Shown one piece after another: positions 838-64,000 of a stretch of 64,000 nt of DNA. This stretch comes from Larus michahellis (Eukaryota > Chordata > Aves > Charadriiformes > Laridae), in assembly GCF_964199755.1 (NCBI RefSeq), contig NC_133901.1, forward strand, positions 7,975,016 through 8,039,015. Direction: 5' to 3'. How positions within the stretch are numbered: the first letter of the stretch is position 1; each line of letters begins with the position of its first letter. Position numbers and translations under genes: made by a program. The notes beneath the pieces are model-generated. The model did no database searches and was not told the DNA's origin. It worked only from the letters and a program-made list of their open reading frames with translations.

Positions 838-3800
838 AAAGTATTATACATTTCTCATTTTGGGAATACTCTACATTGAAAAAGAGTTTAAAAAAAAAAA
901 TAAGTGTTATAGCAATCTGATATTCAGAGCCAGTCCTAGGAGCAGCCCAACCTAATTGGCATGTGACAGCAGAAGATGGAGAGTTCAGCAAGCAGCGGTG
1001 AAGGCTGAAGAGCAGGGCAGACTTCAGAGGGGGGTTACCAGAAAACAGGTTCCCAGTCACACAGCGGGGAAAGAAATGCTTGTAACAGGAGATAAAACAC
1101 AAGAGCAACATGGACCACAGAAGAAAATCCTCCCCGCCCCCCCCCCAAAAAAAAGAAAGAAAATATTAAAAGGAAAAAGTCTAAAGGAGAAAGAGCATGT
1201 CCTAAAGAGCATCAAGGAAGTGCTGTGAAATGCCTTCCCACTTAAAGCGCTGCCACAGGGGAGGTCTGGGAGAGGATGCTGGTAGTTCTCTGCACCCAGG
1301 AAGGTCAGCCTGCTCTGCTAGGCATCTCCAGCACAGAAATCATCTTCACTAAGTAGCAGCAACTTTTTTTTTTTTTGTGGGGTGGTGTAGGTGTGTTTTA
1401 TCCTCATCTGATGCATGCTAATAGCGCCTTAAGGGGGATAAAGCTCTATCTAGGTAGACACATCTCATCCTTTAGGGTCAGACCATCCAGTTCCCAGGGT
1501 CAGACTGAGCCTGTAGCGTGGGGGATGCTCTCAGAGGCAGGTCCTGGGTAGAACAGACAGTTAATGTGCACCTGATTATACTTCTCTGACTTTTAGACCC
1601 CTACACTCGCTGTTTGGTATTAAGTTAAATTTTCTCCATGTGTAAGGGAGTTGCTGCAAGCTTAATTCCTCAGTCCTCAGACTCTTAGCCTGCCTATCCC
1701 AAGTACTGCTTTGAAGTAATTGCTAATTTCAAGCCCAAAGCCAACCCAGTATTTGGCAAGAAACCAAGAGGAGCAACAGACAAAACCAGCACACTTAAAC
1801 CTCAGATTAAATTATGCATTGCAGTCATTTTTATAAAATGGTTTTAAATACTTATTTTTCTCAGAGAAAACACTGACATAGATTTTGTTAGTTTAAAAAA
1901 AAATAAGAGATTGGCATGTAAAAGAAAATTTATTAACAAAGTCAGTTGCCTTGAGTTTCACTTCAAGGAAGATTGACCAGAAGGCACTTTGCTCAAAAAT
2001 TTGATGTCCATGAGTCCAAATTTACTTGGATAGAGACCCGGCACTGCTGGGAAGGAGGGATATCATTGTGCTCCTCCCTTGCACCAGACAAACCTCCTGT
2101 GTGTGACCCTGCTGCAGGGTCCGCAGAATGAAAGCAGGAACCCCGCTAACACAGAATACTGGTGTCAACAACTAACCCGAAAGTTAGACAACTCTGCTAT
2201 CAGCAGATGAGGCTCCCTTGCTGAAATAACTCCTGCTTCCCTGGAACCTTCCAAAGGACAGACAGCAAAAAAGGAGTTTCAGCGTGGAGGGAAGCTGGTT
2301 CCGCTGGTGCTACCTCTGAAGCGGCACAGATCCACTTCGAAGTCTTGTTGGGCAGGAGGTGAATTTTATTTTCCCCAGGAACTGCTGGGCTTCAAAGGCC
2401 CTGCAGTCTGGCTACAGTACTTCAGATACAGTATCGCACCATTGCTCCCTATGTTTCAGGTTCACAACTATTTTCGGTAAAAATAATTGGGGGGAGGAAA
2501 AAAAAAAAAACTTTATCCTGTTCAGAACAGGAATGGGTAAAATTGCACTGCATTCTGGTTTCCCAGGGTTCACTTCTGAAAGTCTGCAATGGGCTTTCAA
2601 ATCCTCCAGACATCTTCCACATTGCTGAATAGCAAACAATTAAAAATGAAGTTATGTTCATTTGTTTTAACACATTTTAAGGATAGAGTCTGAGACTGAG
2701 CACCCAACACCCTTCATTTATAATTGCAGCTGGAAGGCACCAAGTCCAGCGTTATTTTTTTTTTTTTAATGACAGAACAGGTACAGACAAGAACAGTAGT
2801 GTGTTAAAGAATCAAGTTAACACTACAATGTTTTGGGGTTTCTTTAATATCTATCAGAATTTTATTTCAGTGATTCATCAGTATCCATGCCTTGTCCCTG
2901 TGTGCGTAAAGTGCATTTACGAGAAGGAGATGAGTTTCCATCTGGGATGTCTGTCTTGACTTGATTTAGGAGAGCAGATTTAATAAGCGGTTATCAAACA
3001 CTTTTGATTCTGCTTTTAACGTAGCATGGACAGACATTTAAGAGTCCTTTTGATAAACTAGACGTGAGACACAGAATGGGGTTTCTTTTTCAAAACACTT
3101 TTCAAATATCTTGTAAATATTGATAGACAAAATGAGGAGAATTAATTAAAACATAAAATAAATCCACCCCTTCCTATAAAAACTGATTAGATCTATTGAT
3201 TATATAATAAAAGCCTACAGTTTGGTTTTAATAAGCTACAAACGAAGTGTCCAAAAGGAGGAGCATCCTTTTTACAGTTGTTGGAGAAGATGCAACATTC
3301 TTCCCTTTCCGAAGCCAACGGGATTGATAAATTAAATCCGAAGCCAATGGGATTGATAAATTAAATCAAAGTCAGACCTTTAACTTACTTTGTTTTTCTA
3401 GTGATTAATTGTATTGAAAGAGCTCCCACCAGTTACAGCTGGCTTTGGGTCACACCCCAAGCCGAGCTCAAGGGTAAATCCGTACTGGTGATTAAAGAAA
3501 GAGGCATTAACTGGATTTCAAGTACTTGCAACAAATTGTCCACAAGAGATCCGTGGGCTAGGACACATTTGCAGAATATATTAAAAGCTAACACTGCCTT
3601 CCAAACGAGCTCAAGAAAAATCTTGCAGTGTTCTCAGACAATTTGAAGAGGGAAAAAGTTATATTTCCTGGATAACTTCTTCACAGTGCTTACGCATTCG
3701 TCTCAAGCGACGTTTTAGATACAGATACACTGAGGCTATAAGATAAAACAGGCATGTGCTTATACTGCGAGTACAGCTGCAGCATCTCAGGAAAAAGAAT

Positions 3801-14522: not shown

Positions 14523-14775
14523 AATCATAGAACGGTTTAGGTTGGAAGGGACCTTATACAGACCATCCAGTTCCACCCCCCTGCCCTGGGCAGGGACACC
14601 TCCCACCAGACCAGGTTGCTCCAAGCCCCTTCCAGCCTGGCCTTGAACACCTCCAGGGATGGGGCAGCCACAGTTTTCTGAGCAACCTGGGCCAGGGGCT
14701 CACCACCCTCACAGTCAGGAATTTCTTCCTGATATCTCATCTAAATCTCCCCTCTTTCAGCACAAAGCCCTTGTC
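14523..14775 (-). mobile_element. CR1 LINE, truncated 3' end (inverted)
   Basis: The reverse-complement CR1 signature reads from the 3' tail (ATCATAGAACGGTTTAGGTT) through CTGCCCTGGGCAGGGACACC, CCAGACCAGGTTGCTC and GGAATTTCTTCCTGATATC. It is the only minus-oriented CR1 I see. Confidence 0.93.
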
Positions 14776-17700
14776 TGCACCCACCTCTCTGCACCAAGGT
14801 CAGAACCAAAGGTAGGTCCTACACAGTAGCCGTCATCTTGTGGTTTTTTCAGGGGACTTTGTAAGGCCAGAGCAGAATTTCCTCGATTTTGCTGGTCCGT
14901 TTGCAGCACCACATTGCCATCTGGTGTCCCTCGCCTTCCCCGGCAGCCTCTCCAACAAGCAGGTGAAATACAGCAGCACTGCTAGCGCAGTCTAAACAAA
15001 GCTGTTCAAGATGCAAATAGGTCTGCCATCCATCACACATTTAAATGGATTTGAACGTTTTAATTAACTATTTTAGAAATACAAGACACGAGCTTGCAAG
15101 GACGCAGTCAGACGAAGTGTCACCAAAAAAAAAGCAGTGTACAATAGCAATGCAAGTATTAAGTCTTGGCACATTAGGATCTGCACAGGTGTATCACTTC
15201 GAAAACAGCTTTTTTATACTCCAGCAATTCAGTCATTCAAGACTAAATCATGCCTCTTCAGCTAATGTCTTGTTTTTATCATCTAAACATGCAATAATAT
15301 TTTTAACTGGCCCTTGAAATGATACACCAAGCTATTTGCAGCAGATTTAACCTTCTGCTTAAATCCTGCGCGCAACCAGCTATCACTGCTCAGCTACATC
15401 CTTTTGCAAACAGTCTTCATGGCTTGCTCACTGGCCTTTCTTTTTTTCTTCCCCCGGCCTAAAGAATTTGCAGAAAGCTCTCTATTAAATGCAGGTTTAA
15501 GCAGTGTCTTTGGCACAAAGCTAATCAGACCCAGGGGATGGAACCTAGGTCTTAATTATGGAGGGAAATTGAAGAATATTCTTTTTCAGAAAGTTCCTTG
15601 GGCATGAAGAGTGAGAAAATAAACCCAGCAAAGGAAACTCGTTCCTCAGCAGCCAGAAACACCAACACAAACACAGAAAGAACAGGGCATGAAGCTGTTC
15701 CTTCCTAATTCTGACTAGCCTAACTTGCATGCCTGCTATATATACATTAATCCTTTTTGCTGCTCGCAGCGCAAGCTCAGGAGGAAGCAAACAGATGGAC
15801 AATGACTTATTGTTGGAGAGACTTGGATCAGCAACTTAGAAATTCAGATTTATATGGGAAAAGCAAGTTAGTCATCCAAACAAATAGATACGCCCTGGGG
15901 AGAAGAAAAATCTGGATAGCAATGGAACTAAAATAAAACCTTAAGAAAAATAAAGACTATGAGCTTGCAGAAGACAGAAACAGATATAAAGGGAATATAA
16001 AGAGAAAAGAAGCAAGGCAACACAAAGCGGGCATATACAACTGTCTGCTAAATGCTCATTTCTTGTGTGGCTGCATTTATAACACAATGAAGGAAAGACC
16101 GAGATCTTAAAAGCACTGAGTGTACCAGCCTTTGTAACATACAGGTCCATACATCGGTGTTTTCTCAAACACTTTAACACTTCCCAACCCCAAGTGTTGC
16201 TGAGGAAGACTGAGGCTGTCGGGTCCCCAGATGTGCCCAGCTGTGCACACAAGAATCCCTTCCAGCACACCTGGAGAGCCTCCGCAGCTCTGCAGGCACC
16301 CTACACCCACCGTGTCTGGCCGGCACCACACATTGACATCACAGAGTGATTGGGGCACATCCTACAAGCCTCAGGTAGCCCGGGCACGGGGTGACCCAGC
16401 AGCACACGTGTGATGCACCCAGTGTGTGCCAGCGGCAGCAGACTCCCTGCACAGGCACCAGCAGCTAGATGCGATGGGATATTCAGGCTATATTAAGGTT
16501 CAGGATTTAAAATTAAAATTAGAGCGGGGGGGTTAGGTCGCAGAGCAGGATCTCTTAGGCAATAAAGAGCACCTCTGGAGTAATTTTCTTAGAAATATTC
16601 TAGAGGAAGCAACCTTGCCAAGGCAGAAGATGGTCTGGATGATCTAATCATCTCTCATGTCGGGGCTGTGTCATTACCTTCAGTTTGCATTACAGATTAC
16701 ATGTAATACACAGTGTCCAGAAATAGCATATGCACAGCAGGTTATTCTCCTGGACCCTGTTGCTTTCCACCTGTCCAGAAATTGCTTGCCAGATCCACAG
16801 ATGCAAATTCCGGTAAGTCAGAGGCTATCATCTTGTTCAGCAAGAGGACACAGGGATAAAGAGCTGAGATACTGTTGGTACTTACCCTTCACAGAAGGCA
16901 GGAGAAAAAAAAAGAAAAGAAAAAAAAATCAGAGCCACAGGCATATTAAGTATTCTCTCCAGGAGCACGTCAGACATCTGGATTACACTTGGCAGTGAAA
17001 GACAGTTACGCTAGTCCCTGCCCTGTTTCCATCTCCTTGGTAAATTAACAGGGATGAGCTACTTATTACTCTGGCTGCTGTTCCCCACTTCTCCGTACGG
17101 CGATAGCATCAGAACAGCAACGCAGGCTTTGCCTGGGCAACTAACCCAAGGAGAGGCCCAAACCAAAATCCACAGGGGCATCCTTCGATTAGAGCAGGAG
17201 ATGTCTAAGGGTTTTATCTTCAGATATTTCCAGACAGAAGTTGAGATAATTAAAGCAAATTTATAGTTTTGCTAAACATGTCATTGATATTCAGTGTCTC
17301 AAAGGGAATATTAGTCAAAGTATATATTTAAAAAAAAAATACAACCCACAACCTGTATCGACCAGACCGGGCTCCAGCCTTTCTCCATCAATAAGAATTT
17401 TTGTGTTTTTCTCGTAAATCCTGGAGAGTTGGCTACCTAAAGATTTTAGGCACTTGAAGAGAAACCAGAGAAGTAGGTAACACAGGTAAGGGAACCCCAC
17501 ACTTTTGCTCCGACAACAGGCAGAGAGATCCTGACATTTCAGCCTGCCTCCATCCACCTTTATTTCCCCCGGTGCCACGGAGCTGTGCTGGAGTGGGGAT
17601 TGCGGGGGCAGAGATATCACAAAACAGCCAAAGAATAAGAGCACCAAAAACATTAGAAATATTTCAGTTCTGAAATTGCTTCCAGCCCAAGCATCATGAC

Positions 17701-28347: not shown

Positions 28348-32454
<4,107 letters not shown>

Positions 32455-38059: not shown

Positions 38060-38085
38060 AAAAAAAGCAGAAGGCTGCTTTTTTT
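38060..38085. repeat. short perfect inverted repeat
   Basis: An 11-bp arm (seven A then GCAG) and its exact complement (CTGC then seven T) flank a 4-nt loop AAGG, at the 3' edge of the decayed collagen exon. Confidence 0.8.
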
Positions 38086-38528
38086 ATTTTTAAGATGCAC
38101 TGAAAAGCTACAGTTTCATTTTCTCCCCCGTTTTCCTTCTGTCCTTTCTGTCTTTTTCGACGTGGAAATTCAGCCAGCCCATGTTTTCCAGGCTGACCCC
38201 TTTTTCCAGGGACTTCAGGGTCTCCTTTGGGCCCCAACAATCCTCAGACATCAAGTGACCCCATGTGTCCCTTCCAGCCCTTCCCACCCATTTTTCCTCT
38301 GTCCCCCTTGGACCACTTTTCTCCCCAGTTACCTCTTGGTCCTGTGTCACCTCTGGGATCCAGTTGCTCCTTGTAGGCTGCAATTCCTGGAGGTCTTCCA
38401 GGACCAGTTTGTCCCCTCCAAGAAGGAAGTCCTGCTTCACCACTGAGCACCTCATTACTCTTCTCCCTTTGGTCCTCACTGTCCATGTCCTCCTGGAGAT
38501 CCTTGTATTCCCCTCTTCCCAATGTATC
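38060..38528 (-). pseudogene. decayed collagen (Gly-X-Y) exon, OTOL1-like organisation
   Basis: On the minus strand an acceptor (AACTAG, ending 38529) opens an exon in phase 1, as in OTOL1: GYIGKRGIQGSPGGHGQ, then TGA (38476-38478), then GPKGE. A frameshift near 38,455-38,470 moves the reading to a frame that holds the triplet register for over 30 repeats (GEAGLP, GQTGPG, GDTGPRGNW, GDRGKMGGKGWKGHM), with a second TGA at 38244-38246 and then GPKGDP, GKRGQPGKHG and KGQK. Many register glycines are now W, S, R, E, D or A, which are single-base changes from GGN. After the rod only AF, where a C1q domain would begin, can be seen; the rest of the domain is missing. It lies 5.6 kb upstream of the OTOL1 coding region on the same strand. 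I infer a dead short-chain collagen gene, perhaps an OTOL1 tandem paralogue; another C1q/collagen family is possible. Confidence 0.75.
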
Positions 38529-39834
38529 CTAGTTTATCCGCAAAAGGGAAAAAATTGTTAAATTCCCTTTACTAAGAACAACATCTCAGAATAGACAGAA
38601 CACAGCTCTGTGGGAGAACCTTCACTGGTTATCAAATTACATGTTGACCTACATAATGTCAACTTTGTTCACCTAAAGCAGGCAACATACGACTACTGAG
38701 AACTAAGCTGTAAGTGGTGTAAAAACAACAAACCAAGCAAGATACAAAAGATCAAAATCTTCTTCCATCTGGAGATGCTGCTCTTCAGATGCCATGGAGA
38801 ACAGCCCACTCTGGGGACACCGCAGCCATCCTGGAGCCCATGTGCGGTGTGCCCATCTGCGCAGCATTTGGGATGCTAGTTTGCAGTTTTTTGGTTTGGT
38901 TTTTTTTGCAAAAGAAAGAATTATGAAATAAATGCTTGAGCCAAACAAAACCTAAGATGCAAAAAAAAAAAAAAAATCTTTGTAATTTATCTCTACAGTT
39001 GTTCTAATTTCAGATTAAAATTTTGGGGGTCTTTCATTTGTGATGAGAATTTTAAATACTGTGTGGGGTAAATATTAAACAAGTCATTTATGTAGAAAAA
39101 GGAGCTGCTACACATGTAGGCTTTTAAAATGCTTGACTTGAAAAAAATACTGCCATAGGGATTTTCATTGGATGCAAAAGAATAAAATAATCTCCCTGAT
39201 AAATCAGTAGAATTGTATTTAGTGTTATTAAGATTCAGATATCAAGGGGAAAATAAGATCAGAAAAAAAAACCCTGCATCAGTCTGTGCCCGTATATCTC
39301 ACAAACCCTATACTATATGTTGTTTTAAATTTCCTAAGCGTGCAGGATGGCAGTGCAGTCACACCTAAATAGAGATTTATGGCACTTCAAAGTATAATGG
39401 CTAGAAGGATCCAAAAGCTACCGTTGCACATAAATAAGCATTTAGGGAGTTATTTAAGGACTATAAGAACTTCATGGTACCTATTACGTTCTATCGAGTC
39501 AATCACTCTAAGAGTCCCTAAATGCATATTTAAAATACCAGTAACACGTCCTTATTTATATGAGAGACCAGAATTAGAGCGCACGAGCTGTTGTAGCTCG
39601 TTGGGCTGAACTCCTACACCGGTGCTGATTTTTTAAGCCCTTTTAGGAGTGTAAATTGGCCCTGCAAACACCGCTGCAGTGGGGAGCAGAGCGCGGCCCC
39701 GCTCCAAGCCCTGCTCCGGGGCACGGATCTCCTTTGTCAGGACCTACAGATGCCTCTGGTCTTGACTAAGAAACACGTCCATTGTGCTCGCCTGGAAACT
39801 GTAGACGGCCAAAGGTAAAAAGTGATAAAATTAC

Positions 39835-39865
39835 CTGGCTCCCCTTTTTCACCCTGGTCTCCCTT
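39835..39865 (-). pseudogene. collagen exon fragment with intact splice donor
   Basis: On the minus strand this reads KGDQGEKGEPG and ends CCAG before donor GTAATT (starting 39834). The split Gly codon and phase match the OTOL1 first coding exon, which ends GEQGPPG. Upstream the frame meets a TGA within three codons, so the exon's 5' part is decayed or uses another boundary. It lies 1.3 kb upstream of the collagen exon at 38.5 kb, and I take both as parts of one dead gene. The fragment is short, so chance cannot be excluded. Confidence 0.5.
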
Positions 39866-42800
39866 TGTGTGTCAGGCTCGGGGATGTCACAGAAACCTTG
39901 CTTCTCTGGTGTACTGCTGTTTTCCTTCAGTGTGTTTAAGAAACAAAATAGTCCTCAATAGCCATGCCTTTGCTAATAGCAAGCGGTGGGATTGTTTTTC
40001 TCCTTGTCTCCAGTACCAACTTTCAGGGAAGATGATATTTGCTGGAGAGGGGTCTGAAATGCCAGCCTGGCTGGTGATAGTGGCTTGTCCCTTTGGGGTG
40101 AGGGCTGTCAGCCCCTCCGCCAGCCGCATGCTGCAGCTGAGGATGGCAAAGCAGCCCGGGAGCCCCCCGAAGTGCCACCCTCTGGGACCACTTCGGTGGC
40201 AAGTGTGCAAGCCTGGGTCAGTGGGGACAGTGGGTGCCCATGGCAGGTCCCCTATTCCTGGTCTCTGTCCCCTGCCGCCCCTGGTATCAAGGGGAATCAG
40301 CTGAATGCACCTCAAGAAAGGGCTTTCCCAGCAAAACGATTACTACTAAAAGAAGCAGAGAAGTGACACGCAGTCGTAATGCAGTGCAAGTACCACACCT
40401 GAAGAATATCTACCAATGCAGAAACTTCTTTCCCATCCGCAAAGACGGAGACTGTTGTATTCACAGGATTAGATGCTAAAATAAAGAAGAAAAACTGCAT
40501 ATGTTGTACAGTCCTTAAAGAAGCACAGAAAGATCTCCACTCTGACTATTCACAGGACACACAGAGCACCAGCTGCTTTATTGCAGCTTCCTGGAATATA
40601 TTTTTTCTGGTTGAAATCTCCTTTTTCATGTTTAATATATGAAACCCATGAGATAGATCCAATACCTAATACCTATGAGGTAATGTGCTGCCTTTGCATT
40701 CCTTCATGAGCTAATTCTGCAGCTTAAAGTGGCCACTCGACACTTCATGATGTATATCCCAGCATTTAATTATTCTGAGATCAAAATAATCCCAGAGAAA
40801 GTACATCATGCCTATAGCATATTGCAAACTAGCAGTTTTATGTATCCAAATTTATAATTGATTATGTTTAAATAGACACCTAACATTCAAAATATTTACT
40901 TCCCTCAGGCTAAATATTTGCCTGTGAATAACTGGTAGAAATCACAGTGACCTCTATAAACAGTCCTGAGCTGTAATTTACCTTTTAAAACTACTCACAC
41001 TGGGGACTATAAAATTGTATTTTGGATAGTATCATGGCGAGGAGATGAACTGTCAGAGTGATTTTATACGAACATCCAACTTTAATTGGATTTTCTGAAA
41101 AATTTAACGAGGAGAGGGTCCTTTCTGGCTTCTGGTGGGTGCAATTCAGAAACCAAAGTGCCTTTATGGAGCCAAAGTAAGAAGGAGAGAGGATCGGTGA
41201 GTTGGCAAAAGCCCACCCGGAGAAAGATGCACTGGAGGAGTCAACAGGCTGCTTGGACCACTCTGAGCTCAGGAGTTTCTACATCTAAACGCTGTAGTGG
41301 AGGGCGTGAGTTATATACATATATACATATTCCTTCCATTTCTAGGAAATTTACCTATTGCCTATTGTTGAACTCGAGGAATAAAAAGCACACCATAAAG
41401 TTTTATATTGTCTCTAATTTTTTGTACCCGTGGTTGTACTGCCCCATCTCACTCATCCCACATACCTGCCTTCCCCAAAGTTTTTAGGGGTACATCCCAT
41501 CATGTCAACGCCACCTTCTTCCAGCGCTCACCCGTGTATCACCCTCACTCCAACGCCAGACTTGGCAGCTCTACTGATGCGGGACAGGCATTAGTCTTTG
41601 AGGGTCACTCAAAGGAAATAGGCCGTTTCTCCCTTTTTCTTTGCAAAGACGCTACAAGCCCATAGAGGCCAAATACCTAAAGTTCAAAACTTGGTCAAAA
41701 ATTGTGAACCACCATTGTTCAAAAATTCATACTCTAATTTTCAAAATTTTAATATTTTTTTTTTTATAAAAATTGGGAAAGATTTGGCCACACAGCTGCT
41801 GTTGTACTTGGATCAGGTGCAATTATTCTCATACATGTAAAGTTCCCATAAAGTTCCACAAACAAAGAAAATTGGCTTGGCTGGCTGCTGAGTTTCAGGA
41901 AGTTTTTTTACTATTAGAACAGGCGACATTTACCAAAGGTGTATGCCGGGATCACTAATACAGCAGCAGCCTATTAATCAGCAAAGGGCAGGTGTTGTTT
42001 TCTAAGAACCTTTATGCCAGCACTGTGGATTAAGCCAAATATTATCAGTTTTCATCTAATTATTTCACAGAGGGTCTCTCTAGCTCCATACACCTGCCAC
42101 TTTCCCTTCTGAAAGACAAAATTTAATTAAAATCAGGAGATTATGCCTACGCACCTTCTTTTTAAAAAGGGAGATATAGTATCAGGAAGCAAGTCAGGCA
42201 CCAATACTGCAAACCTCATAGTTTTGCTGCGAGACTTGGGATATTTAGGACTCTTAACGCTTAAGCTCTTAAAACCCTGCGATTGCAGAAAATTGCAGAT
42301 TTCATTTTAAAAAGTCAGTTCTGAGCCCTGTGTTAAAAAGGCTCAGACTCTAGGAAGTAAATGACAATAATCCCAAATGTAATTATATTTAAACATTTCC
42401 AGGCTCATAATTTGAGAGGAAATAAGTCACAGCTTGGAATACTTAAGGGATATCAACCTGGTAACTACAACCAGCTTTACAGAGAGATAACAAGCTGTGT
42501 TTCTGATTTCTGATTGTGCCCTTGCCAGTACTAAGGTGTATACGTACAAACAGCATCAACTAAAATACAAGGAAACAGGACTCAGTGACAGACTCAGCCC
42601 TTTCCTAGTCCTCAGCTACGCTACCAGGCTTTTAATTATTGTAGCTCTTAAACAAAGTCTACGTTCTAGCCGCACCTGCCCAAGAGATGGCAATGTCTCC
42701 CTGTCAGACACAGCTTGTCCACGGCAAAGCACTTTGCATTAGCAAAAGCTTTTGTCCTAAGCTTATTATTCCATAATAAACACTGCAATCATTATCTATT

Positions 42801-45800
42801 TTAATACTGTGAAATCCAGTCAGCCCGAAACTACCCAAGTTAATAAGCATCTTATGAGACAAAGGGCTTATAGACCTCCACAATGGCAAATTTTATTCAG
42901 CAGAGAATCTTGTCCTGCTCCTCTGTGGCACTGTGTCGACACACAGTGACGCAGACTCCTTTGCAGGTAATTTTACATCGGGAGGTATTGCAACACCCGT
43001 TGGTAATAAGGAAATGGAAATGACTATTTTCCTTTAACCCAAATTCTTCTTTGCTTTGGCAAATACATGACTTGTAATTAAGCAGTGCTACAGAACAAAG
43101 TTGCAGTGTTTTAAAGAGTCACATGCTGCAACCTTAAAATCCCGATAGGAAGCAAAAAATCTGGGAACAAAACTGCCTGTGTGTTTGCTAGACTCAAAAC
43201 TTGTTGGGAGTGTATAGTATTTACAAAATTAAACAGCACAGAGAGAGAGAGAATTATTTTTTCTGACACACAAACTAGATGCAAGGGACTTTGGATCAAC
43301 ACTAAAGTCAGAGGAAAGATTCCCACTGATTTCTTTGGAACAGACACCTAATACTCACACAAGGTGCAAATTAACTCTCCTAGAAACACAACTCCCCATT
43401 TAAGAAGAGGCGAGAGGCTGTGTGAGAAGAACATGGTGGTTTGGGGCTCATTTCACACCTCAGCATGCTCAGAGATGAGCTGCAGAGGCAGTGAGATGCA
43501 CATCAGGTTTGCATCTCCCAAAAAACGTAGCCATCCAGGGTCTCCTGTGGGGTGGCTGCAGTTGCCAACATTGGGCTGTAAAAGCATCTTCTGTCTCCGC
43601 CACAGGTGTGTTACGGGACTTTCATAAGTGAGAGTTTATCATGCTCTGCAGGGTTACTTTCCCACCCACCAAACCACCATCCGTCTTTCTCCCGCACTCA
43701 TTTATCCTGATTTCCTCTGAAGGTCCCCTGAGAGGAGCCACTGCACAAACCTCTCCACCTCCTCTGCACCTCATCCAGCAGCGGGAACGATACAAGGGAA
43801 TGTAGAATAACACTAAATTATAATTATAAATAAACACACGGTATTTTTTAGATCTTCTGATAGAGCAGGAGCAGAGCAACTTCCTTTCCATCTCTCATAG
43901 CAGGCCTTGAAAAGGAAGAAAGAACCAAACACGCCTCAGTGGGAAGAATTTCTACGGCAGTAGCTGCTGTTTGCAAGGAGGTGACAGAGTCTGGTTTGGA
44001 CTCCAAATGTAGTGACAAGCTTTGCCATATGCCAGACATCGTGGTGAAATGTAGCATATTTTTACAAGAACTGAGAGACAAAGAAGAGGGTTTCCACGTT
44101 GGCAGGTGCAGCTGTGAAGAAACAGGGATGATGGGGCAGAAGGTGGGATGGAGAAGGATAAAGAGGTTTCAGAAAATGTGGAGAACTGCTGCTTCAGCCA
44201 GAGGCTCATCACAAGAGGGCACTCCAAGTGCTCCCAACAGCCCTGCCAAGGATGCTCTCACAGCCCGCACCATTCAAAGAAGTACAAACATCCCGGCCCT
44301 AAGCCTTAATCACCCCCACAGACCCCTGTGCATCCTGAGCATCCTGCTCCAGCCAGGACAAGCACAACAGGAAACAACAAACGTCTTCCTGGAATAATTT
44401 ACCAACAGCCTCCACATAAAAAGGGAATTACTGAACACTGAGTACATGTGATTAATAGATAAAACATGAAAAATCAGGTATCTGAGAGACCTACACTTTT
44501 CAAACTTGTTTCCATTGGGAGCAATAATAAAGGCTGAATCTGTACGGTCAATGTATATAGGGGAAAACAAACAAATAAAAAAGAAAGGAACAAAAAAAAC
44601 CCACCTACTGGTAAAAATTGCTCATTTTAAGAAAATTTCCCATGGCAAACTGGTATCAGAATGAGTAAGATTAATCACAAGGCTGGGTATACTCATGCAG
44701 CATTGTGAAAGAGCATAAAGAGATGAAACAGATAGTGGATGAAATTGCATGTTTTTAAAATGAAGGTTAAAGCCTTCTCCAACAACTGGGTGCAACCCAG
44801 AGCTGCCGCAAAACTGGCTGGCAGTGCCGTTCAGTGGGCGATTCCTTCCAGACCACCACAGCCGCCTTCTCTAGAGGGAAACTTTAAACTCCCAGAGCAA
44901 CTTCATTGTTCTCTAAAACACCCAGGAAGCGGTTATAGGAGCAAACCACGCATCCACTACCACAGCCGTAGGTCACTGTCTACCCACTGGATGAAGTTAG
45001 GTAATAGTACAATCATCCAGCAGATGTGGGAAGAGAAATGGATTGTGTCTTGGACGTATGAACATCCCTGGCTGAAGCTTACAGCAGCTTTGCCTATCAG
45101 AAATCAAGATCTCATAGATGAGCCACTCTGCTAAGAAGAAATAAATAATTTTGCAATAACTAGACCTACTTGGGAATATTCATCCAAAAATGATACTGAT
45201 TTGATTCACATTCACTCCTCCTTCTGTTTTGTCCTTATCATTATTCAAATGAATAAGCTCTGTAGCAAGTAGGTATGTCAATGAAACAAATTTTCCAGTA
45301 ACACCGAAAAAGGCATTTTTAATCCATAAGCACAAATATTCACACCTGATATCTGAATGAGGATGTGAGTATGTTCAGGTCTTCCACAGGCCAAAAACAA
45401 TATTACAATTATAACAAGAAATCACACACTTGCTTATACAGACCATTAAACTGGCTGTAGCAATTTAATATCGTCAAAGGGACACATCAGGAGCAGAGAG
45501 CAACGTGAAGATCTGACTCACGCAGGATAATAGATCCCGCCCAGCCCTTGTACTCAAAGTTGATTAATCCTTCACCTTCTAATTACTTGTTGTACCTGAT
45601 CTCAGAATGCCACCCACCTCCTGCTCTAGCTGGGGTACAGGCAGATTTACCCCAACTGGAATTTACCCAGAACACCAGTTGATAGGCTGCATATAAATAA
45701 TCACGAATTTGCTTTACGCAATGTATAAGCAGTTTCTCACTGAATACCATTTCCGACATCAGATCACAGGTCCAACCTTGCACAAAATCGAAAAGGAACT

Positions 45801-48800: not shown

Positions 48801-51539
48801 GAAAGGGGTGCAACTACTTGTAAATTTAAAACAAAGCCTCTGCATAAGTATATTTTAACATCAAAGACCAAGCAAGCATCAGTTCTGCAGTCAACATCTA
48901 TAAAAACAGCAGCAGAAGAAAGAGGCACTGTTCTCGCTGTGTGAGCTGGGGACGAAAGTGTCACATCCTGATTGCCTCTGTGCCGCCGGTGTAGCTTTGC
49001 TTGTGTAACTGCCTTTTAAAGACATTAATTGAGGAAAGAGCATTTTTAAAGCAGCATTAAAATGTGTTCAAATATTAAAAGAACAACCTTAATTCCAGCA
49101 GTTACATCTGGCCCTTGAAACACTTCGCATTCCTTTATGGCCTTCTGTGGTTCCGAAGACACCAGCCGGTGCCAGAACAGTGACACAGTGGCCCCAGGTC
49201 CCGCTGCTGCGTGCTGAGGACGAGCCACCCCTCTGTGCAGGGAGGTCCCCATTGACCCAGCAGCTTCAGGCAGACACAGCCATGACCAGCTTTGCAGGCA
49301 GAGCTGTGGTGACAGTCACCTCTGGCAGAGTGAAGCAATGAGCTGAAAAAACCACTGCACAGCTGCAGAGAATGTGCAAACTTCAGTTCCCCCACAAAGG
49401 CACATCTTTAAGAGGCAGCTTGTTGTACAGAAAAGTCGGCAATTTACCAACACAAGCTCTTTGTCTCACAGCTCACACCTACTTCTAAAAATCAGCTCTA
49501 CTCATAAATGTGAGAACACCACCACGTGGCTGGCTCCAGCCTCCAGGTTCGCTGTGGTACCCACTGCCTTTGGGGTGTGTGTGCTTCTGGCTTCTTCTGC
49601 CATGTGAGCACAGCCACGAGCCAAACAGACCTCGGTGCCTACAGCCAAACAGGCTGTGGTCAAACCCTCATAGCGCTGCTTCATCAGCCACATTCCCGTA
49701 CCACCCCTTGTCATTTGCTCTCGCCTCTGTGGTACGGAGAGTCACTGGCAAAATAAACTTATTTTTTATCTGATGACTCCCTCAGCCCAGCTTATCCCTC
49801 TGCCACGAAAGGGGACGTGGACCCAAGAGGGGCAGGCAGGGAGAGGGACAGGTCCCCAGGTGGCTCAGTGCCATGGCTGAGGACAGGCACACCATGCTAC
49901 ACCCATGGGCTCCCAAGCTCTTTGGGGATGGTCCCTCCTAATGGTACTTGGGCAACTTCAGCCAACCTTCGGCTGTGGGAGGTGCCCGTTGCCACACAGG
50001 GCAAGGACGTGGCACCAGCGACAGCCCTGCTCCCACCTGCACCTGGACAACATTTGCAACACCCTAATTTTCAAACCCAGGAGGCTGAAGTTAAGGATTT
50101 TTGCCCCCAAAGGCAATGGGAGTTTCTCTGTATCTCCTGCTGCACATAAAAGTTGCAGCATGTCCCAATGGCCTGGTGGGCCTGACTTAGGCCGTTCTTA
50201 CAGCAGGGTTTTGTGCAACAGCTGCTTCCATGCTCCTTCAACAGCTCAGGGCAGAGCACAACAACCAGCCATGCCCAGCTCTGCAGAAATTCGGATCTAG
50301 GCTGGCAGCACATCCAAACGATACGCAGGAGGCCCACATGGCAGTGCCTGGAGCCACCCAGCTCCACTGAAAAGCACAGATGTTTCACGGAGTCTGTCAC
50401 ACTGCGCTCAGAGCCAGCACACCCTATAAGCTTCATTTGATGTGTCCATGCAAACGGGATGCTGGCTCATGCCGAGGTACCCGGCAAGGAACTTGCTCAT
50501 TCTTCACGAGCTGTTCATTTTGCTGCTGTCCCAGTGCGAGGTTTTGGGTCCAGACGCTACACTGACACAACTCATTTTGGAGAGGTCACCAGGAGGGATC
50601 CAGGGATGCCTCATCTCAAGAAGTGCTACCCTGCTGGCCCCAAAGCAAAAGCCGCCACCTTTTGGCCATGTCCCAGAGCAAAACCCATAACCTTTAATGA
50701 AAGAACACAAGACAAAACCCACCCTTTCTTAATGCCACTTGTTTACCACTTAATTAGTGGCGCATAGTAACTGTTTTGAATGCTGAGAAATAGGATCAGC
50801 CTGTCAAGACCAGGTCTCTGCGATTGCTTTGCTTAGTGAATGAGATTGCACCTGGCATCGTGTGGCCTGAGGGTAAAACAGTGAACAAGGCATTTCTGTT
50901 ACTTTTAGTTCTCACACTGCAAAGTTAACTTCTTAAGTAGCTCTTTAGTTGCGAGCAGGACACTAAATCATGTTTTTTTTATATCGGGGCAGAATAAACT
51001 AAGGAAACCTAAGCCTCGTGGTTAGCAGTGTGACGTAGTATTTCATGGGATTTCAGATAAAGTCTTGTAAGTACTTGTCCATCCATATCTTTCTTTTCTG
51101 GAAACACCTCATCTGATACGTTATCACCATTTCCCTCTCTACACACCCATAACACTGGTTTCTCACCGCCGTGCTGCAGCACATCGCAGTGTGTAGGTCT
51201 TTCCCACTCAGCCCCTTCGACCTGGGGAGCTCCCAGGCACCTGCCAGCGCCCCCGGGCACCCCTTCGTGCACCCAGCCTCCCCCAGCTACGTTATAAACT
51301 CTATTACAAGCTTATATATTACAAAGTATGGGTAGAACATAAAGCATTAACTAAGTAAAAGCCGGTTCAGTGCCAGATGTCCAGGGGAGGGTTGGCAGAG
51401 GTTCACCGGAGCGCCGCTGCTCCCTGCAGAGAGGAGACGAAGTGCATTACGCAAGTGCGTTAAACCGATGCCGCCTATAGACGCAGGATCGCAGGGAAAC
51501 CTTAAACGTCGCGGTGATGTTTAGCGGGATGTCACCGTC
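39866..51539. other. intergenic, between collagen pseudogene and SPTSSB promoter
   Basis: GC pockets occur at 40.08-40.28, 47.65-47.85 and 49.8-50.7 kb, with ORFs up to 152 codons. None has a recognisable domain. The pocket at 40.1 kb lies where an N-terminal exon of the dead collagen gene might be sought, but I see no convincing match to the OTOL1 first coding exon. No CR1 was recognised here. Confidence 0.5.
43241..43252. repeat. (GA)6 microsatellite
   Basis: A run of six GA units lies in an otherwise unremarkable intergenic region. Confidence 0.85.
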
Positions 51540-51682
51540 CCGGCGGTGACACCCCGCTAAATCCCACGGGTTTCCCCGAGCCTGGCGCCGCTCTCCCCTT
51601 CCTCCCCCCGCCAGCTCCCCGCCGCGGGACCGCGCTGCAAACCCGAGCAGAGCAGCCGGAGGCGCGCAGCGGCTGCGGCAAC

Positions 51683-51700
51683 GGGGCGGGGCGGGGCGGG
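51683..51700 (+). promoter_or_regulatory. three tandem GC boxes (SP/KLF-type), G-quadruplex potential
   Basis: GGGGCGGGGCGGGGCGGG is an 18-base run giving overlapping GGGGCGGGG sites about 80-100 bp upstream of the TATA-like box. Its four G-runs with single-C spacers also fit a G-quadruplex pattern. Confidence 0.75.
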
Positions 51701-51781
51701 ACGGCGCGGAGGGGCGCGGAGCGGCGCGGACCGGCCCCCGGCGCGGCCGCGGCCGGTGGGGCGCGGAGCAGGGCGGGTAGG

Positions 51782-51789
51782 TATTTAAG
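51782..51789 (+). promoter_or_regulatory. SPTSSB: TATA-like box of SPTSSB
   Basis: TATTTAAG sits inside the CpG island, which suggests a start site near 51,810-51,815 and a first exon of about 50 nt. A TATA-like element within a CpG island is a less common arrangement. Confidence 0.6.
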
Positions 51790-51811
51790 CTCGGCGGCGG
51801 CGGGCTGGGAG

Positions 51812-51860
51812 AACGGCGGTGCGCGGCGCGGTGCGGTGCGCGGCATCCCGCGGAGCGGAG
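51812..51860 (+). other. SPTSSB: SPTSSB non-coding first exon (5' end inferred)
   Basis: A strong donor, CGGAG followed by GTGAGG, begins at 51861 about 70 nt after the TATA-like box. The exon contains no ATG. The 3' end is well supported by the donor; the 5' end is placed only by distance from the TATA-like box. Confidence 0.6.
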
Positions 51861-54800
51861 GTGAGGGAGGCGCCGTGCCGGGGAGCGCGGGGTCCGGTTT
51901 TGCTGTGGCGGCGGGGCCACCCCCCCACCCCCTGCACGGCCCGGTACCGGGGGTCAGCCCCTGCTCCGCTCGGCCAAGGGCATCGCGGCGGAAGCGCCGT
52001 CCCGCGGCTCCCCCGAACCAACGGACCGGTGACCTTGGCCGAGCGGAGCCGCGTACTCTGCGCTGCCATCGGCGGGTCGGGAAGGAGCCGCGGAGCGAAG
52101 GCCTTGGAGCAGGGACGGCAGCGGTAAAGCCTCCAGGATTTGCTCTGCGTGTCTTCCTCAGGGTGGCTGGTGGTGTTGCAGAAGGACCTACAGCCTTCAG
52201 CAAGGTCTCTCTGGACTTGTTGCTGCTGTAGACCCGCAGTCAGGGATTTCCAGGTGGTGTTGCTGGTGCAGCTGTTGGGAAGATAGCCTGCCTAAGGGCT
52301 TCAGACTGGAAGAGGGGAGACCTAGATTAGATATCATGAAGAAATTCTTGACTGTGAGGGTGGTGAGCCCCTGGTCCATGTTGCCCAGAGAAGCTGTGGC
52401 TGCCCCATCCCTGGAGGGGTTCAAGGCCAGGCTGGATGGGGCTTGGAGCAACCTGGTCTGGTGGGAGGTGGCCCTGCCCAGGGCAGGGGCTTGGAACTAG
52501 ATGGTCTTTAAGGCCTCTTCCAACCCAGACCATTCTATGATTCCATAAGTAAAAAAGTTGAAGTAGATGGGTAGGGGTGGAGGAGAGAAGGTGAAGGTGC
52601 TACTCATACCATTGTGGTGGCAATGTTCATTGTTTGCAGGTTTTGGCTCTTTGGCTTTCTTAGAGTTGCTGGTTGCTTCCAGTAGTCCTTCAGCATGGAG
52701 TACCTCCCTGCTGTATAAGTGGAGATGGGATAGTGTACAGGAGAATCCCTGTAACAAATGCTACTACCCCACTTAATCAGCACACGTGGTACTTCTTGGA
52801 CTGTGTATTTTAAAATGCTGTAGGATTTGGGGTCCTTGTTTATCTTTTGCTTATGAACATCGTGAGTATGGCAAAAATAACTATGTCTTGAGCGTGATTC
52901 TGCATGTCCTTGGAGTGACTTCTAGGTGGTATGGTTTTGACAGAGAAATGTCGGGAAGCTCTGCACAGAGTGTGTATGTTGTTCATCCAGGAGCAATGGG
53001 AGATATGGTGAAAGGATGCCTGGAGAGCAGCTCAGGGCTGTGGGAATACTTACTCCATCACCCCTGTGCCCAAAAAGTGTCCAGGACATGTGATGTAGTG
53101 AATGGCACCAAGACTCAGGTGTTCCACCTGGCTGATGGAGGGGGGAAGAAGCCAACACAACATAACCCAGCCCCTACCACTTTTCAGGGGAAACTGGCAC
53201 AGTGGCTTGTTGCAACTTTGAAGAGCCTTGTCTTGCCCAGCTGAACAGGAGTATTTCTTGTGTTCTCCCCACCAAAAATCGAGTGTGGCTTTGCTCTCCC
53301 CACATTTGAGGGATATCCTCCTATATCAATAGTTTTCTGTGTTCAAAACTGATCATAGGGATGAAGTGGTCTGCGAAGGAAGTTGTTCCTTACTGCATCT
53401 GTGGGGTTAAATCTGTTTCTGTGAAAAATGTGAATTTCCCTTTCTATTTCTTATCTGTTGCAAATGTCTCACTTAATTTTTCTTTTCCCCTTTTAGACCG
53501 ATAACCCGTCATGGTGCAACACTGCTTCCTTTCATTAGATCTCAAAGGAGATGCACTTGCACAAGAGTTTGGTACCTGTTTTCCACTAATACCTGTCATG
53601 ACTATGACAGTATTCACCTTCTCATATTACATATAATCCAAGACTAGCTATTATTTCCAGCTGCTTCAGAAATGACTCAGAGCAAAACAAAGAAGTCTGA
53701 ATAAAATAACAACTACATTTGAAAGTAAATCTTTTCATAGAGCCCAAACATCTTAGCTATTTTGTTTATAGCATGATGTGTTTACACAACCTTCTGAACT
53801 TTAAAGTCCCCTTGAAGGACCTAGCTGATGTCCCAAATCTGAAAAGTCTTAGAGAACTAAGGCTTGTAACCAAGAGCAAAGACAAAACCCCTCGAAGATA
53901 CCTCCTGGAACAGTTCAAGACCTCTCAATTTTTAAGTACTTGCAATATAAACCTGGTGCTGGTCTCTAGTGATGGGTTTGATGTCTTGCTTGGGAATCAG
54001 CTCTGTTCAAAACCACGTGCATAAACTATGCTTACACTGAAAATACAGGGAAAGCTTGCCCTGAGATTTCAACTTGCCAATTTACCAGTCTTCTCTGGCA
54101 GAGCTTATCACCAAAGGCCAGTTCTGCTCCAATGTGCAAGTCCCATCACAGGGGCAGGACTTAGAGCTCAGAACATGCTCAGCCCAGAGAAAGCTGGAAA
54201 GGAAGGGGTTTGTACATAAACTATAAGAAGAATCTAGTTATATAAGAACACGACTGAGGAAGCTTCAGAGGAGGGAAGAACAGAAAATTCTTTGAAAAAT
54301 TAATTTGGCCTTGGAAGAAAATGGGACAGAGCTGCTCTAAGAATGTTTTTGTTATAGGGAAGCTGCATCATCTTCTTCCTCTGTGCTTGAGTGCAGAGAA
54401 AGGAGAGTGTGCCAATAAATCAGCCAGGCTTCAAAGCCAGGAGGAGCTGATTTATTTTTAAGTGTGTTTTGCTAGGAGCAGCCTATAGTTTTCAGGGAGT
54501 AGTTAAGGCATGAAATCAGTCCAAACATTAACTGCTGCACTGTCACTTGAATGGTTGGGACCCTCTCTCCAAATGAGATCCCTATGGGATCTGCAGATCA
54601 TCCTCCCCTCTCTTGAGGGTCAGCAGCTTATATATCGCATTTAAAATTACTTCCCGCAGTGTTGCAGGCCATGATGCACTCCATCTGTGTACTGAACTTG
54701 ACTGAAGGAGCAAATAGTATTTCAGAAATCATCTGGGTATACTGCAGTCCAGGTGGAAAGATAGCCTGACAAGAATCCATTTGCTCCAGTTACAGATGTG

Positions 54801-61040: not shown

Positions 61041-61071
61041 GTCATCTTCTCGAAATCACTGAAAGCTGAAG

Positions 61072-61314
61072 ATGGATATTAAGCGCGTGAAGGACTATAT
61101 CTATTGGCTGTACTACCAGTACCTACTGATCACTTGCAGCTATGTGCTGGAGCCCTGGGAGCAGTCCATGTTCCACACCATCACTGTGACTGTTTTCGCT
61201 ATGGTGGTGTACACGGCTTACGTCTTCGTCCCCATCCATGTCCGCCTGGCTTTTGAGTTTTTCTCCCAGATATTTGGAGGCCACCCTGAAAGCACAGTTT
61301 CCATTGTGAACTGA
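61072..61314 (+). CDS. SPTSSB: serine palmitoyltransferase small subunit B (ssSPTb)
   Basis: This is a complete single-exon ORF of 80 codons starting [17 protein letters not shown] and ending in TGA. The family core is clear: WLYYQY, VLEPWE (25-30), then a hydrophobic span with [10 protein letters not shown] and the [10 protein letters not shown] segment. These small ER membrane proteins bind the SPTLC1/SPTLC2 or SPTLC3 core of serine palmitoyltransferase and raise its activity. Isoform b shifts acyl-CoA use toward longer chains. Residue 25 is Val, the position reported to distinguish ssSPTb from ssSPTa (Met), so the isoform call is firm. The start context is strong (A at -3, G at +4) and lies 31 nt after the acceptor at 61,040. 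The C-terminus ([12 protein letters not shown]) is about four residues longer than the human 76-aa protein. Confidence 0.97.
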
Positions 61315-63931: not shown

Positions 63932-64000
63932 TGCTTCATTATTACTCCATGTTAATTGTAGTTAATTGCTCCATTATTACCCTACGCTAATTGTAGTTCA
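63932..64000. repeat. imperfect ~35-bp tandem repeat at the window edge
   Basis: Unit 1 (63932-63966) and unit 2 (63967-64000) both start TGCT, share CATTATTAC and share TAATTGTAGTT, with about six differences. The second unit reaches the window end, so the array may continue. Confidence 0.75.

Follow-up and report, generated by a model that had tools for sequence, protein, structure and literature searches.

What was the collagen-like sequence that lies just upstream of OTOL1, and what became of it? An earlier note had proposed a decayed collagen gene at 38060-39865, possibly a lost tandem paralogue of OTOL1. The proposal was followed up in the window, i.e. the whole 64 kb stretch of DNA (C10:7975016-8039015), and in searches of its own genome, an assembly of 1.405 Gb in 616 contigs. 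The decayed locus sits between OTOL1 and SPTSSB, upstream of OTOL1 and on the same (minus) strand:

28348..32454, minus strand: OTOL1, intact, with four coding exons (32103-32454, 30361-30450, 29362-29433 and 28348-29243)
61066..61314, plus strand: SPTSSB coding exon, Pfam SPT_ssu-like, 65.5 bits

The OTOL1 product has 469 aa, with 74 Gly-X-Y triplets (one without Gly) and a C1q domain that scores 115 bits in Pfam. Exon 1 encodes a signal-peptide-like N-terminus of its own with a cysteine block, ahead of 4 triplets, and the last exon holds 52 collagen triplets behind a phase-1 acceptor. All three introns between coding exons split a Gly codon in phase 1, which agrees with the splitting described for the whole of OTOL1 in the earlier note. 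Elsewhere in the window, a CpG-island-like GC peak (0.571) at 50001-52000, with a tandem of a 10-base GGCGCGGAGC-type unit at 51661-51735, may represent the SPTSSB promoter or its first exon. Short tandem repeats with units of 29 and 35 bases were seen at 3308-3367 and 63932-63998, and similar open frames (LPPDQVAPSP...GWGSHSF) at 52327-52599 (minus strand) and 14531-14815 (plus strand); we take these frames to resemble 3′ ends of CR1 retroelements, and the CR1-like repeats of the genome, judged by eye, to be bird-like.

The core of the locus is a single long exon:

38115..38528, minus strand: collagen exon, decayed, starting in phase 1; runs of 8 and 37 Gly-X-Y triplets with a frameshift between them; two TGA

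In the first run, directly behind the acceptor, all eight triplets have Gly in one frame, and in the second, in the neighbouring frame, 37 consecutive triplets extend from 38441 down to 38109, 24 of them with Gly (32/45 over both runs and the two frames). The 16 bases between the runs (38442-38457) amount to two triplets less two bases, hence at least one frameshift, and the exon measures about 47 triplets. The two TGA codons, at 38476-38478 and 38244-38246, both fall at Y positions inside the register and could be former CGA arginine codons. In the 37-triplet run 13 glycines are lost. Thus the register of more than 30 repeats on the OTOL1 strand, the two in-frame stops, the frameshift and the many glycine losses that the earlier note reported were all located. 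Its interval does contain collagen, but the decayed exon occupies only 38528 to about 38115, and the rest includes an intron of 1.3 kb. The collagen signal is weak below about 38172, where the last seven triplets retain just two Gly, and the real helix end is therefore put somewhere between about 38172 and 38115. The Pfam Collagen model scores the upper stop-free piece at 18.7 bits (E 0.0014) and the lower one at 11.7 bits, both below the curated cut-off of 27.2, as may be expected of a decayed copy. Of the 88 residues in the decayed reading, 13 are proline (0.15) and 29 charged (0.33); part of the proline loss is expected from decay alone.

Could such a register arise by chance? Glycine codons at 9-base steps were scanned on both strands of the 64 kb, and two strong collagen places emerged, OTOL1 and the decayed locus, while the other places listed peak at 7/15. 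The best 15 triplets of the locus hold 13 Gly, while 2000 order-2 Markov sequences modelled on this stretch averaged 6.1 and did not go beyond 9; the best 30 hold 22, with a simulated maximum of 16. Moreover, if the sequence once was a collagen, its lost Gly codons are expected to lie one substitution from GGN; this is the case for 12 of the 13 in the 37-triplet run, versus 22 of the 71 other (X/Y non-Gly) codons (Fisher p = 4.5e-5). Only the two GG positions among the nine of the register are strongly informative at the locus, and the same is true of OTOL1. Unlike the decayed locus, the tandem arrays L040 and L045 found in the genome carry information at most of the nine positions; array L039 is less clearly set apart. 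Tandem Repeats Finder at its default threshold called no array at the locus. The simulations, the one-step Gly losses, the column information and the absent array call together largely refute an origin by chance, low complexity or tandem repetition.

As an observation of its own, the genome holds tandem arrays whose open frames are long and Gly-X-Y-like, namely L039 (C25:2.065 Mb), L040 (C17:0.904 Mb), L045 (C379), L060 (C2:29.249 Mb) and L082 (C1:2.945 Mb). Several such places exceed the Pfam collagen cut-off, which makes them a trap for collagen annotation; the GKE array L082 carried the phase-1 tag too and was excluded as an array.

The flanks of the decayed exon provide the signs of splicing:

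38529..38545, minus strand: splice acceptor, AG at 38530-38529, phase 1, Gly codon split
38530..39834, minus strand: intron of the decayed gene, 1.3 kb
39835..39865, minus strand: collagen stretch K-GDQ-GEK-GEP-G, then gtaatt, a phase-1 donor, 1.3 kb upstream of the decayed exon
39866..39960, minus strand: candidate N-terminal non-collagen part of the upstream exon, translation one frame off, LFCFLNTLKENSSTPEKQGFCDIPEPDTQ

The acceptor (...ttttttcccttttgcggataaactag|GA TAC ATT GGG, phase 1) has a pyrimidine-rich stretch about 15-25 bases before its AG, and it anchors the sole run of more than 4 collagen triplets behind an acceptor outside OTOL1 and the decayed exon's own interior. The stretch at 39835-39865 is probably the end of an upstream exon. 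Forty simulations of 57.4 kb yielded 4 donor-anchored runs of at least 3 triplets, so that 0.1 would be expected, and none occurs in the real 57.4 kb (the window minus OTOL1 and the decayed locus). The phase-1 Gly splits claimed for the acceptor and for an upstream donor are therefore both in place, at 38529 and at 39835. With one exception, no further collagen exon rises above simulation in the 1.3 kb intron or up to 46 kb upstream, and nothing at the locus was recognised as corresponding to OTOL1 exons 2 and 3. The exception is a run at 44344 on the minus strand with Gly in 5 of 6 triplets (0 of 100 simulations); it is cysteine-rich, holds a stop, does not exceed simulation at 8 or 10 triplets, was not counted as an exon and is probably due to chance. 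The reading of 39866-39960 includes a cysteine, needs a frameshift to connect with the collagen stretch and has no Pfam match as a peptide, and its role as an N-terminal non-collagen part would be speculative.

A short-chain collagen of the OTOL1 kind ends in a C1q domain, and a profile was built from that of OTOL1 and five other C1q domains. It gives OTOL1 184.7 bits and no other place in the window more than 4.2 bits; on the minus strand from 33 to 38.6 kb no C1q remnant was found (best -2.3 bits), and in the genome scan with PF00386 only OTOL1 matches in the neighbourhood of the locus. As a control of power, the C1q domains of nine of the 30 loci described below were decayed with one or three indels (90 trials per setting), and at d 0.12-0.2 they rose above window background in 88-100% of the trials, at 30% decay in 59-71%. 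Since a C1q remnant is usually detectable in this control and none was found, deletion of the C-terminal domain is probable, unless that domain was not of the C1q kind. The peptide VAFQCIL just past the helix had been considered as a C1q start and was dropped, as no profile supports it.

It is very probable, in our judgement, that the locus is a real decayed spliced collagen gene. A DNA search of the own genome with the decayed exon returned one match, itself, although such a search can miss copies, and no collagen parent emerged among the scored own-genome candidates at the DNA or the protein level. Given that neither a second copy nor a parent was found, we are probably dealing with a spliced, unitary pseudogene. 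A retrocopy is very unlikely, given splice sites in phase together with the lack of a parent among the scored candidates. Single as far as found and disabled by its lesions, the locus is one whose former function we infer.

To which collagen class did it belong? With an E limit of 10 the read-through protein had 22 own-genome matches; apart from the self-match, the tandem arrays L039 (E 0.002) and L040 (E 0.006) came first, then L041 (0.086) and OTOL1 (0.15), with arrays L045 and L050 lower down. L041 and L003, which rank ahead of OTOL1, are no collagens (Gly at best 4/15 on the matched strand), and OTOL1 is thus the best recognisable collagen, at just E 0.15. In tblastn without composition correction or masking, OTOL1 matched the decayed locus at 62 bits. 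NCBIfam matches to bacterial collagen-like adhesins, far under their cut-offs, and PDB matches at E 0.7 or more were discarded as reflections of Gly-X-Y or chance. When X and Y residues were aligned to the whole OTOL1 collagen, the result was not better than with shuffled triplets (p 0.11 and 0.14 in two runs). Over 18 targets the lowest uncorrected p values were those of L016 (0.033), the OTOL1 last exon (0.040, from one non-colinear segment), L013 (0.053) and L021 (0.087), the rest being at least 0.14; anchored alignments to the OTOL1 last exon gave p 0.72 at its start and 0.34 at its end. Two more targets were L078 (local p 0.56, start-anchored 0.045) and L062 (local 0.11, start-anchored 0.42). 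No p value for X/Y kinship to OTOL1, L011 or the others survives correction.

A genome search with the Pfam collagen model yielded 138 matches, with 150 of 2511 candidates scored, 30 loci read and runs of at least 30 triplets considered. Among C1q genes, 30 of 33 matches were read as loci that span about 1.5 kb on each side, with farther exons falling outside; ten of them (L014, L020, L022, L025, L029, L030, L032-L035) have no collagen run within that span, and L036 has spurious runs only. Only two of the 30 show a phase-1 acceptor followed by a last exon that exceeds 40 triplets, OTOL1 (52) and L011 (41), the latter forming with L057 what we take to be a C1QTNF9-like gene. Three C1q genes with long open frames (L007, L008 and L017, presumably COL8/COL10-like) have runs of 60-61 triplets without a phase-1 acceptor. 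Ahead of the first donor the decayed gene has 3 triplets and OTOL1 has 4; upstream runs in seven other C1q genes (L009, L013, L015, L019, L021, L024 and L057) comprise 8-14 triplets, a figure that assumes them to be first exons with true donors. Proline makes up 14 of 82 residues in L011 (0.17), 19 of 148 in OTOL1 (0.13) and 0.34-0.39 in L007, L008 and L017, and charged residues 29 of 82 (0.35) in L011 and 68 of 148 (0.46) in OTOL1. The composition of the decayed exon favours the otolin/C1QTNF side. C1q-collagen genes of this genome commonly split Gly codons in phase 1, and so does L078, one of the 30 loci read in the Pfam collagen search; the feature is therefore not diagnostic for OTOL1. In sum, the anatomy of the decayed exon agrees with the otolin class without being confined to it.

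Our preferred explanation, at a probability of roughly 0.5 as a whole, is that of a unitary pseudogene, a lost short-chain collagen gene whose simplest origin would be an old tandem duplicate of OTOL1. A multi-exon collagen gene would have stood directly upstream of OTOL1 on the same strand and then died, as the collagen register, the splice sites, the stops, the frameshift and the single copy found suggest. Its helix would have had little proline and many charged residues, and its single long exon, about 47 triplets in length, would have opened with a split Gly codon; given these features, the most probable product is a short-chain, secreted collagen from the otolin / C1q-TNF-related class. 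Membership of the C1q class is somewhat more probable than that whole reading, while descent specifically from OTOL1 as its tandem paralogue is possible and leans towards doubtful. What stands of the earlier proposal is a collagen gene with an intron and OTOL1-like phase that shares the strand of OTOL1 and has decayed; the X/Y likeness and a C1q domain failed to appear, and a sister relation to OTOL1 is only partly supported, by strand, exon phase, the long exon and composition. The C-terminal domain may have gone by deletion just past the helix, as its absence suggests, and the duplicate, of OTOL1 or of its ancestor, would have been kept for long. Changes at first and second codon positions, counted by hand, number 9/76 or 14/90, which corresponds to a JC distance of 0.13-0.17. 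With a neutral rate in birds near 2e-9 per site and year, the loss would date to perhaps 65-90 million years ago, a rough estimate with wide error that assumes every triplet to have begun with Gly. Judging by its lesions, the remnant would make no collagen now; when alive, one might speculate, its product was a matrix collagen that formed trimers, perhaps in the inner ear.

Among the alternatives, a remnant of a non-C1q collagen gene, e.g. of a SCARA3-type class-A scavenger receptor, that is unrelated to OTOL1 and adjacent to it by chance, survives best and is still unlikely. In genes of the SCARA3 type, presumably, the end of the protein is encoded by a long phase-1 collagen exon, and L078 (C3:130899040-130899432), which we take to be SCARA3-like, has such an exon, with 49 triplets behind a phase-1 acceptor, a stop at its end and no C1q. 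The absent C1q remnant at the decayed locus agrees with this, as does the start-anchored X/Y alignment, which is better for L078 (p 0.045, uncorrected) than for OTOL1 (p 0.72). However, L078 is rich in proline (37/97, 0.38) and less charged (19/97, 0.20) compared with the decayed exon (13/88 and 29/88), and its best local X/Y segment reaches only p 0.56.

That the locus is a collagen fragment copied or moved there by segmental or exon-level transposition, and never a working gene, is quite improbable. It would account for there being one long exon and one short run only, with N- and C-terminal parts unrecognisable, yet the two collagen pieces agree in strand and phase, follow each other in the proper order and are separated by an intron of 1.3 kb, and the scored own-genome candidates include no parent for either DNA or protein. 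Far less probable is the view that these are lost 5′ exons of a longer ancestral OTOL1 that died when a new start arose. Strand, phase, the position directly upstream and the lack of an own C-terminal domain are in its favour, but OTOL1 exon 1 bears its own signal-peptide-like N-terminus and cysteine block. In addition, mammalian, chicken and fish otolins are described with this layout and 69-74 triplets (PMC2939893), so that a longer OTOL1 ancestor is not indicated.

A live gene broken by assembly errors only, or a live non-coding RNA gene derived from the remnant, deserves even less credence. Although the lesions are known from a single assembly, 13 lost Gly, two stops, a frameshift and an absent terminal domain exceed sporadic errors, and no Rfam family reaches its cut-off in 32.5-61.5 kb, where an undescribed RNA could still escape. 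Least credible is a pyrimidine-rich or tandem-repeat stretch that merely mimics Gly-X-Y, which is largely refuted by the simulations, the one-step Gly losses, the splice sites in phase, the absent array call and the strong information at GG positions only, even though the genome does hold arrays with such frames (L039, L040, L045, L050, L060, L082) and L039 is similar to the locus in column information.

Returning to the lost short-chain collagen gene, one may tentatively propose that a bird, perhaps other amniote, ancestor had two adjacent otolin-class genes of this kind, the second being lost in the line studied here, although this is more doubtful than the paralogy itself. If this is true, the range of otoconial or other matrix collagens was formerly wider, and crocodilians, turtles or palaeognaths may still have an intact copy. 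The crystals of the balance organ are scaffolded by otolin, and the mineral used differs between vertebrate classes (PMC8211825, PMC2939893). A lost OTOL1 sister would be a concrete, datable loss in the toolkit of that organ and would show where a living copy is to be sought; if the gene encoded a different collagen, a matrix gene has nonetheless been lost, and its location is well mapped. Pseudogenes like this one are familiar, so that only proof of the otolin link would raise the interest above moderate. Among the titles and abstract openings listed in searches of open-licence papers, none describes an OTOL1 neighbour of this kind.

How does the locus compare with systems that are already named? 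The SCARA3-like gene, as we assign it, shares a phase-1 collagen exon of similar length (49 triplets) without C1q behind it; it differs in being proline-rich and terminating in a stop, and its likeness is p 0.56 locally and 0.045, uncorrected, when anchored at the start. The presumed C1QTNF9-like gene (L011/L057) has a last collagen exon of 41 triplets behind a phase-1 acceptor and almost the same composition as the decayed exon, whereas its upstream collagen run counts 10 triplets and its local X/Y similarity has p 0.67. As a mode of loss, STK33 of neognath birds offers a parallel, a unitary pseudogene with large deletions, indels and stops whose remnant stayed in place and whose loss is dated to about 100 million years (PMC4509753). 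For STK33 an intact gene is known in palaeognaths and other vertebrates, whereas the decayed collagen is known here from one genome alone. From OTOL1 itself the decayed gene differs by having neither a C1q remnant nor a significant or colinear X/Y likeness, and no recognised counterpart of exons 2 and 3. Nonetheless, the two are alike in strand, in phase-1 Gly splits, in low proline and many charged residues, in the few triplets before the first donor (4 in OTOL1 vs 3) and in the possession of one long collagen exon (52 vs about 47 triplets).
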